From Planctomycetia bacterium (GTDB taxonomy: Bacteria > Planctomycetota > Planctomycetia > Pirellulales > UBA1268): a stretch of 64,000 nt of DNA. Positions 3,586 through 33,776 of the stretch are shown here, piece after piece. The position numbers were made by a program, and so were the translations under genes. The notes beneath the pieces are model-generated. The model was not told the DNA's origin. It ran no database searches and saw only the letters and a list, made by a program, of their open reading frames with translations. Each line of letters starts with the position of its first letter. Within the stretch, counting starts at the first letter, position 1. The stretch covers positions 1-64,000 of the forward strand of contig JAIOPD010000031.1 in the NCBI GenBank assembly GCA_021414115.1. Direction: 5' to 3'.

Positions 3586-3674
3586 CCGTTCATCCGTCCG
3601 TCCCGCAGCCCTCGGGTGGATCACCACCCGGGGCCGCGGGGGACGGTGCCGGATGTGTGCGCCGTTTTCGTGCT

Positions 3675-3799
3675 GGTGCCGCCGGGGCCGGGCAAAGCCT
3701 CCTTCGCGGGAATATTTCGCGTTGGCCGTGTGCGGCGGGGCATGGCCTTGGCGAGCGAAATCTTCAACGCTCGTCGGCTTCGCCCGTCCCCGGCTCGCC
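3675..3799 (+). repeat. 125-bp structured repeat, copy 1
   Basis: One of six copies. The left end (GGGCAAAGCC) and right end (GGCTTCGCCC) are complementary apart from one G-T position, so the unit can fold into a long stem or acts as terminal inverted repeats. Other copies are at 6659-6782, 24682-24808 (inverted) and three in tandem at 29573-30174. Confidence 0.7.
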
Positions 3800-3830
3800 A
3801 TTTTCGTGCGAGCGGCGGCCCCGGATCTTC

Positions 3831-3864
3831 GTCAGGAAGCCCCAAGCGCGAGCGCGGGGTAGAC
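3831..3864 (+). repeat. REP-like palindromic unit
   Basis: Short palindrome family unit (GGAAGCCCCAAGCGCGAGCG and following G-run) placed directly after the 125-bp element, between two convergent genes. Confidence 0.7.
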
Positions 3865-6589: not shown

Positions 6590-6782
6590 GCCCCAAGCGC
6601 GAGCGCGGGGTATACGGGCAGCATCGAGATGGTGCCGGATTAACTCGCCGGTTTCGCGGTGGTGCCGCCGGGTCCGGGCAAAGCCTCCTTCGCGGGAATA
6701 TTTTGCGTTGGCCGCATGCGGCGGGGCTCGACCGCTGCGAGCGAAATCTTCAACGCTCGTCGGCTTCGCCCGGCCCCGGCTT
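6590..6782 (+). repeat. REP-like unit (6590-6616) plus 125-bp element copy 2 (6659-6782)
   Basis: The gap between glgB and the convergent PPIase-like gene is almost filled by one REP-like palindrome and the second copy of the 125-bp element. The ends of this copy (GTCCGGGCAAAGCC and GGCTTCGCCCGGCC) still pair, with one G-T. Confidence 0.7.
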
Positions 6783-6812
6783 GTCGTCAGAAAATCCCAA
6801 CCTCCGGCCGAC

Positions 6813-24587: not shown

Positions 24588-24859
24588 ATCGTCTCACTGT
24601 ACCAAGCAAAATCGCCACATACAGGAGACCACACGACGCCCGGCCGACGCGCGAACGAAACCGGCCCCACGATCGCGAAACCGGCGAGCCGAGGTCGGGC
24701 GAAGCCGACGAGCGTTGAAGATTTCGCCCACCACGGCCATGCCCCGCCCCACACGGCCAACGCGAAATATTCCCGCGAAGGAGGCTTTGCCCGACCTCGG
24801 CGGCACCACCACGGACCCCGGCGGGCACTACCACGAACCCCAGTGCTTCGCCGCGCCGC
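24588..24859. other. Intergenic region with inverted 125-bp element
   Basis: Upstream of folE and downstream of the LON-domain gene. The main content is copy 3 of the 125-bp element at 24682-24808. No coding signal. Confidence 0.6.
24682..24808 (-). repeat. 125-bp structured repeat, copy 3
   Basis: The inverse of the other copies. The end segments GGTCGGGCAAAGCC and GGCTTCGCCCGACC pair along 14 bases with one G-T. Confidence 0.7.
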
Positions 24860-27778: not shown

Positions 27779-29554
<1,776 letters not shown>

Positions 29555-30303
29555 CGGTGCCGCCGGTTTCGCGTTGGTGCCGCCTGAGGTCGGGCAAAGC
29601 CTCCTTCGCGGGAATATTTCGCGTTGGCCGTGTGGGGCGGGGCATGGCCGCGGTGGGCGAAATCTTCAACGCTCGTCGGCTTCGCCCGACCCCGGCTCGC
29701 CGTTTCGGTTCGCTTCTCCGCCTGGCCTCTCCGTCAGGAAGCCCCAAGCGCCAGCGCGGGGTATCCGGATCGCACTGAGATGATGCCGGAGTGGCTCGCC
29801 GGTTTCGCGCTGGTGCCGCCTGAGGTCGGGCAAAGCCTCCTTCGCGGGAATATTTCGCGTTGGCCGTGTGCGGCGGGGCTTGGCCGCGGTGGGCGAAATC
29901 TTCAACGCTCGTCGGCTTCGCCCGGCCTCGGCTCGCCGTTTCGGTTCGCTTCTCCGCCTGGCCTCTCCGTCAGGAAGCCCCAAGCGCCAGCGCGGGGTAT
30001 CCGGGTCGCACTGAGATGATGCCGGATTGGCTCGCCGGTTTCGCGCTGGTGCCGCCTGAGGTCGGGCAAAGCCTCCTTCGCGGGAATATTTCGCGTTGGC
30101 CGTGTGGGGCGGGGCATGGCCGCGGTGGGCGAAATCTTCAACGCTCGTCGGCTTCGCCCGACCCCGGCTCGCCGGTTTCGTTCGCGCAGCGGCCGGACCC
30201 ATCCGTCAGGAAGCCACGGGGACCCGGGCGTTGCAGTGAAACGGTGCCGGATTGGTTCACCGAAAGTGGCATGCTCGGCACCGGGGTATACTCCGCTCCA
30301 CCC
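29555..30303 (+). repeat. 236-bp tandem repeat block containing three 125-bp elements and two REP units
   Basis: Equivalent points at 29585, 29821 and 30057 show a period of exactly 236 bp. Each period holds one 125-bp element (29573-29702, 29810-29938, 30046-30174) and, in the first two, a REP-like unit (29733-29766, 29969-30003) plus spacer. The third copy is cut off after the element. It lies between aspS and tRNA-Val. The copies are nearly identical, so the duplication looks recent. Confidence 0.8.
30287..30292 (+). promoter_or_regulatory. -10 box of tRNA-Val
   Basis: TATACT, five of six matches to consensus, 11 bp before the tRNA 5' end. The -35 at the usual distance (AAGTGG) is poor. 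Confidence 0.45.
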
Positions 30304-30377
30304 GGGCGACTAGCTCAATTGGTCAGAGCACCTCGTTTACACCGAGGGGGTTGGGGGTTCGAGTCCCTCGTCGCCCA
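30304..30377 (+). tRNA. tRNA-Val (anticodon UAC)
   Basis: A 74-nt cloverleaf. Acceptor GGGCGAC pairs with GTCGCCC at 30370-30376, then discriminator A. D arm GCTC-N-GAGC, anticodon stem CCTCG/CGAGG with loop TTTACAC giving anticodon TAC, and T arm with GTTCGAGTC. No CCA is encoded. The last 21 bases and the two following bases are repeated directly at 32390-32412, bounding the inserted segment downstream. Confidence 0.95.
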
Positions 30378-30379
30378 CT
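30357..30379 (+). repeat. Direct repeat at tRNA-Val 3' end (att-like, left)
   Basis: 23 bp covering the T arm and 3' acceptor strand of tRNA-Val plus two bases, identical to 32390-32412. The position is typical of a tyrosine-recombinase attachment site. Confidence 0.8.
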
Positions 30380-30518
30380 CAAACGTTTTGCCGCGGGCTG
30401 CAGCGAGGACCAGCCGCGCAGACTGGTGGCGGAACTGGGTCGGCATGGGTGCGCAAGTTGGTTGGAGTCGTCGCCCCCCCTGCCTGCCACATGGCATCGA
30501 CGGAGCGTCGTTCGCCTT

Positions 30519-31419
30519 CTACGCTCCACTTTGTCGTGTCGCCCGGACGATGGTGGCAGAGGGCGGCTCGCCAAATCGCTGCCGGTAGGCTTGCGAGAAA
30601 CGCCCGAGGTGGGCGAGTCCGACCTTGATAGCAACTCCGGCGACCGAGACGTCTTTCGTGGCCCGCGAGAGAAGTTCGTAGGCGCGGTCGAGCTGGACGC
30701 CCCGCATAAAATCAATAACGCCTCAGTGAGGCTTCGATCGAGATCTGCGCCGTCACGGACCCAACCGGCGGAGCTGGAAAGCGGGCGCAAGTGGCAGCCG
30801 TGGCGAGGGCCTCGATCAGTTGCTTCTCCGCCTGTTGGAAGGATCGCGGCAGGAGGCGGCGCCGGTCCATCTCCGACCGTAACTGGAGCGTCCCGACTCG
30901 TCGGCTACGGTCGACCATCCTCGCGAGTCCGACCGTTTGGGCCGCGACAGCATCGGCGTCGTCGTTGCGCAGAATCGAGTGACCGATGGCTGGTTTCGCG
31001 AGCCGTTCGCCGACGGCTTCCCGCAACCTGGCCGCTGGCAAATCGACCATCAGGCACCGGGTCGGCGTGGCCTCGAATCGACGGATCATCGCCGGTGCCC
31101 GAAGGAGCGGCGTTCCAGGAGCGGCCCGGTATGTTCCGGTCCCAGTATCGATTTTGACGCATCCTGTCAGCGGCAAGATGAGGCATGCCTCTTCGCTCGG
31201 CTCCCGCGGCATAACGATCAGCCGCGCAGTGCAGGCGACGAAAGTGATCGCGATGTCGCCCAGGAGGACACGATTGATCGTCACCGCATACGGATCGGGA
31301 CCGATGACGTGGCTCTGGTGCGATGGCCAGAATCGACTTGTCTCCCGACGCGCGACGGAGAGGTCCGTCGTGTCGACGAGGTGAAACCGGTGGAGCAACG
31401 TCTTTGGAATGCGCGGCAT
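30519..31419 (-). pseudogene. AraC-family transcriptional regulator, internal deletion
   Basis: From ATG 31419 (GAGGA 4-5 bp upstream) a frame encodes an AraC-type sensor domain (TRFEATP-like cupin region, LRAPAMIRRFEATPTRCLMVDLP) and stops at 30712 after AQISIEASLRRY. The C-terminal HTH domain resumes in another frame at about 30707: MRGVQLDRAYELL, then VAIKVGLAHLGRFSQAYRQRF. Against intact relatives, the first HTH helices, roughly 20-30 residues, are missing at the junction. DNA binding should be lost. It faces the PEP-CTERM gene divergently and may once have controlled it. Confidence 0.75.
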
Positions 31420-31631
31420 GGCGTCCTCAGAGCATACGCACAGGTCGCCGCTGAGGGCGATCGCTCCGTCACCTTCCCGCAAGTTCACGCGGCACAAGGG
31501 GCGACCGCCAAGGGGCGTGTCGTTTTATGGATAGTAGTTGCATGGCCGATCACCCCGCTCTTAAATTACTCAGCGGCTAAGGAATCCTTTCGAGCCTGTT
31601 ATCGCTGCCCGTTATCGAGGCCATTGATCCC
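31420..31631. other. Divergent intergenic region inside the insertion
   Basis: Less GC-rich than its surroundings, especially from 31,520 on. It would hold promoters for both the araC remnant and the PEP-CTERM gene; no clear consensus pair is seen. Confidence 0.4.
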
Positions 31632-32276
31632 ATGCGTACCCGAGCTTGCAAGGCAGTGTTTGCGACCGTTTTCACGGTTGCCCTCTTCGGTATCTCGCCT
31701 TGCCGCTCGGCCACCATTTACGACACGACGCCTCCAGCGACTTCCCTCGACTTCGACGTCTCGCCGACGGTCAAGCAGGCCACGATGTTTCACACCACTG
31801 CGTCTGATTTTGTCGTCACGAGCATGGCTTTCGACTTCCGCAAGGATTCAGAAGATCCCGCCACCGGTTTTCTCAACTGGCTGATCTACACCGACAACAG
31901 CGGACTGCCCGGCCTGCCGATCGCGGGTAACCCCATCTACAACATGAACGTCGCCGGACTCACCACTTCTTACTCAACGGTTTCAACCGGTGCGCTGAAT
32001 GTCTCGCTGTCGCCATCGACGACTTACTGGCTGGTCTTCAACGGCGAGTCCCTCAGTTCAGGAGTTCTCCAACTTCTGGAATCCGTGGGACCCAGTGGCG
32101 TCGGCGGCCCCTTTAAGGCCGCTTCGTATCAGTCCAGCGGCCCTTGGTCTGGAAATTCGGCTGTTGCACCAAGCGGCGTCATCACCGCCGTCCCCGAACC
32201 CTCCACCTGTGCCATGGCCCTCGCCGGTCTGGCCTGTGGCGGATACTCGATGTGGCGGCGGCGGAAGCGGGCCTGA
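31632..32276 (+). CDS. PEP-CTERM sorted secreted protein
   Basis: A 214-residue secreted protein. It has an N-terminal signal peptide (AVFATVFTVALFGISPCRSA), a beta-rich body (TTYWLVFNGESLSSGVLQLL) resembling choice-of-anchor domains, and a C-terminal PEP-CTERM signal: VPEPSTCAMALAGLACGGYS then a basic WRRRKR end. It should be processed by an exosortase and exposed on the surface; no exosortase is in the window. It is the only intact gene in the tRNA-bounded insertion. Confidence 0.88.
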   Translation: MRTRACKAVFATVFTVALFGISPCRSATIYDTTPPATSLDFDVSPTVKQATMFHTTASDFVVTSMAFDFRKDSEDPATGFLNWLIYTDNSGLPGLPIAGNPIYNMNVAGLTTSYSTVSTGALNVSLSPSTTYWLVFNGESLSSGVLQLLESVGPSGVGGPFKAASYQSSGPWSGNSAVAPSGVITAVPEPSTCAMALAGLACGGYSMWRRRKRA

Positions 32277-32389
32277 CGCACAACTGACGCTGCCCGGACT
32301 CGGCCACACAGGCGGGAAGTGCAGCGGTTGCACACAAATGTGCACACTCGTTGATCGGCGCAGCGGTTTTCTGGGGGTGAAACGAGGTT

Positions 32390-32412
32390 GTTCGAGTCCC
32401 TCGTCGCCCACT
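32390..32412 (+). repeat. Direct repeat of tRNA-Val 3' end (att-like, right)
   Basis: 23 bp identical to 30357-30379; only the 3' part of the tRNA is present, so this is not a second tRNA gene. Confidence 0.8.
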
Positions 32413-32450: not shown

Positions 32451-33776
32451 ATGCACGCTCACACGGTACACACGCTGGCGGCCGCCGCCACTCTCGCCCT
32501 GTTCGCCGCCGCCGCACCGGCTCAGGAACACCCGCTCGCGTTCGTGGGTGCCGACGTGCTGCCGATCTCGGGGCCGCCGATCCCGGGGGGCGTCGTCGTC
32601 GTGGCTGAGGGAAAGATCGTCGCCGTGGGGCCGGCCGAATCGACGCCGATCCCCGCCGACGCCGAGCGGCTCGACTGCGCCGGCAAGGTGATCATGCCCG
32701 GCCTCGTCGATACCCACAGCCATGTGGGGGGCGGCTGGGGAGGCGACGCGAGCGGTCCGATGCAGGCCGACGTCCGGATTCTCGACTCGATCAACGTCCG
32801 TGACGCCGGATTCCGCAAGGCCCGCGCCGGCGGCCTGACCACCCTCAACCTCATGCCCGGATCGGGCCACCTGCTCAGCGGACAGACGATCTACGCCAAG
32901 CTGCGGAAGGCCTCGACGATCGATGATTTCTTCATGAAGGATGCCGCCGGCAGGCCGCTCGGCGGCATGAAGATGGCCAACGGCACCAACTCCCAGAAGG
33001 AGCCGCCGTTCCCCGGCACGAGGTCGAAGTCGGCGGCGATCGTGCGGCAGAAGTTCCTCAAGGCCCAAGACTACCGGCGGAAGGTCGCCGAGGCGAAGGA
33101 CGAGCCTGCCAAAATGCCCGACCGCGATCTCGAGATGGAGGGGCTGCTCGACGTGCTCGACGGCCGCGTGGTGGTGCATCACCACGCGCATCGTGCCGAC
33201 GATCTGATGACGGTGCTGCGACTCCGAGACGAGTTCGGCTTCAAGGTCGTGCTCCACCACGCCAGCGAGGCCTGGAAGATCGCCGACCAGTTGGCGAAGT
33301 CGGGGGCGTCCTGCTCCGTGATCGTGGTCGACAGCCCGGGGGGAAAAATCGAAGCGATGGACATGTCGCTGGCGACCGGGGCGATCCTCGAGAAGGCGGG
33401 CGTGCCATGTGCGATCCACACCGACGATCCCGTCACCGATTCCCGGCTCTTCCTGCGGACGGCAGGACTGGCCGTGCGGGCGGGCATGTCACCGGCGAAG
33501 GCGCTCGAGGCCCTGACCCTCGCCGGCGCGAAGATGCTCGAACTCGACGGTCGGATCGGCTCGCTCGACGTCGGCAAGGATGCCGACCTGATCGTGCTCT
33601 CCGGCGACCCTCTGAGCGTGAAGACCAAGGTGCTGCAGACATGGATCGAGGGGGACAAGGTCTTCGATCGCGCCGACCCCGACGATCGGCTCTTCGCCGT
33701 GGGCGGTTACGGCGCCGGCCGCGACCAGAAGGCCCACGCCTGCTGCACCGACGAGCGGATCTCCGAGACGAAATGA
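32451..33776 (+). CDS. Secreted amidohydrolase with intact metal site
   Basis: A 441-residue exported amidohydrolase (imidazolonepropionase/dihydroorotase-like superfamily). A signal peptide (LAAAATLALFAAAAPAQ) is followed by the beta-sandwich and TIM barrel. Metal ligands visible are HSH in MPGLVDTHSHVG, the His-rich VVVHHHAHRADD, KVVLHHASEAW, and the Asp in CAIHTDDPVTDSR. The C-terminal LGxDAD-type segment is DVGKDADLIVLSGDP. The substrate is unknown; cyclic amides or peptides are usual. The stop overlaps the next gene as ATGA. Confidence 0.88.
   Translation: MHAHTVHTLAAAATLALFAAAAPAQEHPLAFVGADVLPISGPPIPGGVVVVAEGKIVAVGPAESTPIPADAERLDCAGKVIMPGLVDTHSHVGGGWGGDASGPMQADVRILDSINVRDAGFRKARAGGLTTLNLMPGSGHLLSGQTIYAKLRKASTIDDFFMKDAAGRPLGGMKMANGTNSQKEPPFPGTRSKSAAIVRQKFLKAQDYRRKVAEAKDEPAKMPDRDLEMEGLLDVLDGRVVVHHHAHRADDLMTVLRLRDEFGFKVVLHHASEAWKIADQLAKSGASCSVIVVDSPGGKIEAMDMSLATGAILEKAGVPCAIHTDDPVTDSRLFLRTAGLAVRAGMSPAKALEALTLAGAKMLELDGRIGSLDVGKDADLIVLSGDPLSVKTKVLQTWIEGDKVFDRADPDDRLFAVGGYGAGRDQKAHACCTDERISETK

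Follow-up and report, generated by a model that had tools for sequence, protein, structure and literature searches.

Positions 30380-32412 of the window (the whole stretch of 64,000 nucleotides that was analysed, from a draft genome of a freshwater Planctomycetia bacterium) are a real insertion at the gene for tRNA-Val(UAC), and very probably represent the att-bounded, integrase-deleted remnant of a tyrosine-integrase island of this tRNA, resembling the cis-mobilizable elements (CIMEs) described in streptococci. The genome that carries the window (G000) is 95% complete, in 144 contigs; the relatives named below are metagenome-assembled genomes of Planctomycetota/Pirellulales, many of them apparently from lakes. 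The insertion and its surroundings comprise the following features:

27779..29554, forward strand: aspS, upstream of the integration site; this flank is conserved, and in sister genomes the gene is collinear ahead of tRNA-Val.
30304..30378, forward strand: tRNA-Val(UAC), the integration target, intact (ARAGORN).
30357..30379, forward strand: attL core, the 3' end of tRNA-Val (exact 23-bp repeat).
30379..30406, reverse strand: left-end vestige of a tyrosine-integrase gene from the tRNA-Val family, comprising its final ~9 codons, RCSPRQNV-stop (left-end model; integrase-frame alignment).
30519..30707, reverse strand: C-terminal HTH fragment of a broken AraC-family regulator (Pfam HTH_18; alignment with intact homologues).
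30712..31497, reverse strand: N-terminal AraC_binding_2 fragment of the same broken regulator (Pfam; homologues in five other congeners; alignment).
31632..32276, forward strand: intact PEP-CTERM protein of 214 aa with a signal peptide-like start (PF07589 over cut-off).
32291..32389, forward strand: conserved right end of the island family (right-end model; identity to three relatives).
32293-32337, reverse strand: a small, conserved ORF pointing inward, represented by its first ~15 codons (MCATAALPACVAESG; alignment).
32330-32346: palindrome GCACACAAATGTGCACA in the right end.
32390..32412, forward strand: attR core, the displaced copy of the tRNA-Val 3' end (exact repeat).
32451..33776, forward strand: amidohydrolase-like gene, the conserved downstream flank, found directly after tRNA-Val in empty sites.

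The repeat that bounds the segment, GTTCGAGTCCCTCGTCGCCCACT, is exact over 23 bp (30357-30379 and 32390-32412, spacing 2033 bp); given the tRNA bounds called by ARAGORN (30304-30378), its first copy consists of the last 22 bases of the tRNA plus one. By chance one would expect about 6e-9 copies in the window and 4e-7 genome-wide, and no third exact copy occurs in the whole 4.35-Mb assembly, where these two places are the sole matches. The tRNA itself is identical in four relatives (G015, G017, G019, G020). In G017, the closest relative among those searched (AspS 95% identical), the site is empty and the amidohydrolase gene (86% identity) starts 39 bp after tRNA-Val; in the window it starts 38 bp past the second repeat copy. 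Two further empty sites are seen in G015, with the amidohydrolase (81% identity) 21 bp after the tRNA, and in G018, where it follows directly. The whole insert is absent from all 24 relatives searched, whose partial DNA matches to it fall mostly in PEP-CTERM coding sequences or their tails and in right-end fragments; the empty sites and the merely partial matches thus identify the segment as a lineage-specific insertion. The first-pass annotation had proposed a tRNA-targeted insertion between two copies of the tRNA-Val 3' end, lacking an integrase, and had suggested looking in close relatives for an empty site; the exact repeat, the intact tRNA and the empty sites in congeners all bear this out. 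It had also named two observations that would speak against the proposal: the same genes at the same place across the clade, where none of the 24 relatives searched has the whole insert, and a repeat that is widespread and unrelated to tRNA-Val, which its two exact copies genome-wide contradict.

Both ends of the segment are homologous to the ends of tRNA-Val islands in sister species, several of which carry an integrase; these relatives were found for the ends alone, and no direct parent of this island was found in the genomes searched. At the left end, the att is followed in G020, G012, G001, G003, G013, G009 and, twice, in G002 by a block, GTTTTCTTCGGGTCGCAGCGATTCGCATC.TTTCGCACGATC, which constitutes the integrase gene's 3' end and contains three CGCA-type repeats about 10 bp apart; these could be integrase arm sites. 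The window keeps about the first 27 bp of this block, including the first CGCA-type repeat, and lacks the two others, which the units of G013 and G002 retain. Read in the integrase frame, it gives RCSPRQNV-stop, versus RCDPKKTALVGDEGLEP in G020 and RCNPRQNAVVGGEGLEP in G012. A left-end model built without the window matches 30358-30406 with E=7e-10, the att itself supplying about 18-19 of the 41 bits (judged from matches of 24-29 nt in G005 and G021); since the vestige is short, its homology leans on the adjoining att. By frame and alignment, the left end is what remains of an integrase gene, the greater part of which would have been removed by deletion. Somewhat further inward, about 33 bp (GCGGAACTGGGTCGGCATGGGTGCG-like; 30429-30462) recur at G000:C15:17523-17555 and G015:C153:5619-5652, neither of them at an att.

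At the right end, a model built without the window matches 32291-32410 with E=4e-19, its sole match in G000. Outside the att, this end is 64-68% identical to those of three relatives, where shuffled sequences reach at most 41%; the conserved part covers about 100 bp before the att in G002, G008:C39 and G009:C4, and G020:C303 matches as well. A small inward ORF (MCATSEIPAFVAESGRLAAWDELPEELRRRLASLTPEVLAALHALFNG-like) starts within the palindrome GCACACAAATGTGCACA at five loci (the window, G008:C39, G009:C4, G002:C31 and G020:C303), and beyond it three genomes (G002, G008, G020) have a GIY-YIG-like gene; the ORF possibly encodes a recombination helper, for which we regard it as a candidate. Longer elements carry the same palindrome at their left side too, in the integrase tail and about 110-130 bp in from the end.

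A single integrase family overlaps tRNA-Val(UAC) in G019, G006, L104 and G022, the last from another genus; further members end at the same att at a contig end (G013:C49) or overlap tRNA-Val(GAC) (G003). These tRNA-Val integrases are 55-84% identical to the first, and in all six, when aligned, the frame runs into the att and ends inside the tRNA where the contig allows (GDEGLEPPTPSV and variants). The layout is complete in G019: its 7-kb island has a tyrosine integrase of 451 aa next to attL and, at the far end, a second att copy of 22 bp. Other members of the family lie at or near tRNA-Val(CAC), tRNA-Met, tRNA-Ser, tRNA-Glu and tmRNA. Within the segment, in agreement with the first-pass annotation, there is no integrase: none of the Phage_integrase (PF00589) matches listed for the genome falls inside it. 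That annotation had further supposed a dependence on an integrase elsewhere in the genome, which is not supported: G000 has only two integrases of the family, neither of them at tRNA-Val. One (G000:C137:35648-36961; L085) has a frame that runs into the tmRNA gene, which was recognised by eye, ARAGORN having made no call in the stretch examined; the other (C102) has a frame that ends about 0.6 kb short of a tRNA-Asn gene. No integrase of the valine-tRNA site was found in G000, of which the draft is 95% complete in 144 contigs, so that a helper integrase could be missing from the assembly. Integrase frames of 494 aa and of the same tmRNA type as that of C137 occur in G002, G008 and G010.

The anatomy of the segment, the empty sites and the homologous islands show how it arose: a tyrosine integrase recombined an integrative island into the 3' end of tRNA-Val(UAC), by which the tRNA was rebuilt and the displaced 23-bp copy was left at the far end. 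In the parent island family the integrase gene adjoins attL, and its frame continues across it into the tRNA; in the window this gene would have been deleted, presumably after integration, except for the last codons that remain as the vestige. The interior would have been reduced as well; besides the conserved right end, what is left is the AraC regulator, now broken, and a single PEP-CTERM gene that is intact. The remnant keeps attL and attR, and it might leave through a related integrase acting in trans or through a new adjacent island, and seemingly in no other way; its shortened left end makes even such mobilisation doubtful, and the remnant island is probably immobile today.

The DNA that follows this tRNA-Val differs in almost every congener, marking the site as a hotspot. 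In G020 the left and right ends of an island lie on two contigs, the right one adjoining a deaminase gene, and in G011 the deaminase directly follows the empty tRNA. Integrase-less, att-bounded segments of 1.4-2.0 kb are found at tRNA-Val in three other relatives, so that the pattern is a recurring one, although broken contigs favour the detection of complete short islands, whose share is thus overestimated. The first, in G002 (C31; L043), is 1.37 kb long and holds a GIY-YIG gene and a probable DUF433/DUF5615 toxin-antitoxin pair, all named by eye; immediately after it comes another unit, whose left end is nearly identical but whose interior differs. The second (L118, 10922-12700 of JAGWVR010000056.1) spans 1.76 kb, has an att copy with 3 mismatches and carries a nucleotidyltransferase-like gene. 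The third, from another genus (L124, 4512-6570 of PKCL01000113.1), measures 2.04 kb from tRNA-Val to an att copy that has 1 mismatch, and holds a single gene, for a 340-aa Tat-type phosphoesterase-like protein, and no integrase.

These segments are a reason to consider that the window segment might be a true non-autonomous satellite or mini-island, with conserved ends and cargo, which regularly borrows the integrase of full-size tRNA-Val islands. Their unrelated cargo, the near-identical left ends and different interiors of the two adjacent G002 units, and the left ends of G013 and both G002 units, which break off at nearly the same place behind three CGCA repeats, would all fit this reading. 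The window, however, keeps only the first of these three repeats, its genome has no matching integrase and one of its cargo genes is broken; moreover, no cargo is common to any two of the mini-islands, and each left end can be read as the 3' part of an integrase gene, so that simple deletion explains it. We consider a satellite unlikely, and it is equally doubtful that freshwater and marine Pirellulales harbour a class of mini-islands of 1.4-2 kb that move between valine-tRNA genes by borrowed integrases, with the window segment as one of them. Because the family integrases of G000 sit at tmRNA and near tRNA-Asn and the left end is an integrase vestige, the segment is better read as a decayed island than as a dedicated satellite. 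The valine-tRNA hotspot of these uncultured freshwater Pirellulales shows integrase-bearing, truncated-integrase, tandem and tiny integrase-less forms in closely related genomes; it gives a clear series for the decay of islands into fixed cargo and offers a place to test the mobilisation of remnants in trans.

By gene content and Pfam matches, the cargo is what the first-pass annotation had listed, a broken AraC regulator and an intact PEP-CTERM protein and nothing else. Compared with intact homologues, the AraC gene is frameshifted and about 55 residues are missing from it, including the first HTH; it is, as judged from this alignment, a real but dead gene. That this cargo should be unusual was not borne out: the genome has 31 PEP-CTERM matches, which rules out this protein as a special cargo, and the regulator is broken. 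PEP-CTERM genes are also seen near tRNA-Val islands in G012 and G002. Nor did the deviation in GC content and k-mers that the annotation had proposed to look for appear, the segment having a GC content of 62.4% (genome 66.2 +/- 3.4%; 8th percentile) and an average 4-mer distance; composition thus lends no support to a foreign origin.

This ordinary composition, together with a PEP-CTERM paralogue elsewhere in the genome (G000:C140, 52% amino acid identity), is what could be said for a repeat that arose by chance or duplication, a piece of the tRNA having been duplicated downstream by a process other than site-specific integration, with native genes in between; the empty sites in three congeners contradict this, as do the very low chance expectation of the repeat (about 6e-9 in the window) and the homology of both ends to integrative islands at the same tRNA, and we regard it as extremely improbable. 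An assembly artefact of the metagenome bin, in which att-bearing sequences of different strains were joined at the repeat, hardly deserves more credit: the draft is split into 144 contigs, and in relatives breaks between contigs are indeed seen at att copies (G013:C49), but the segment lies inside a 77-kb contig and both the upstream aspS-tRNA pair and the downstream amidohydrolase genes are normal neighbours in G017.

Between aspS and tRNA-Val, the window also has three tandem copies of a GC-rich unit of 236 bp (29561-30268), which recurs at 3660-3861, 24676-24823 and 6646-6787 and has 57 full or partial matches genome-wide, many of them hitting a short core around unit positions 165-207; on the distribution of its matches, it is a dispersed repeat family.

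In its layout, the insertion corresponds to the tRNA and tmRNA islands recognised by Islander, in which a tyrosine integrase targets the 3' end of the tRNA, the tRNA is regenerated and the displaced fragment lies at the far end; Islander, however, requires an integrase gene in the island (PMC4383910), and the window segment has none, only about nine codons of an integrase tail being left. The ssrA islands of Dehalococcoides, some of which have an integration module against attL while others (15 reported) have none, likewise comprise several islands at one RNA gene with repeats of about 20 bp of its 3' end, but involve a serine recombinase and tmRNA, where the window has a tyrosine integrase, tRNA-Val and other cargo (PMC3146451). 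The small genomic island for microcin H47 in E. coli excises and integrates using host functions, its own recombinase gene being absent, and thus demonstrates that recombinase-less islands can still move; it shares with the window segment the bounding repeats and the lack of a recombinase gene of its own, but it has 13 kb and imperfect repeats of about 145 bp and is experimentally mobile (PMC3191183). The closest likeness is to CIMEs, remnants derived from ICEs or IMEs in streptococci that have lost the integration and transfer genes and kept attL and attR (PMC5704250). The window segment, too, keeps attL and attR, with the left end shortened; has no integration or transfer genes, only the AraC fragment pair and the PEP-CTERM gene; derives from an integrase-bearing island of the same site, as the integrase-tail vestige and the shared right end indicate; and belongs to a site where related islands lie side by side (G002, G009). 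It differs in being much smaller (2 kb) and in that all that is known of its parent points to a tRNA island with a tyrosine integrase, not to an ICE or IME, so that the assignment stops at 'CIME-like'. The integrase-less, att-bounded remnant is a known kind of element, here traced to a family of larger islands at the same site in related species.
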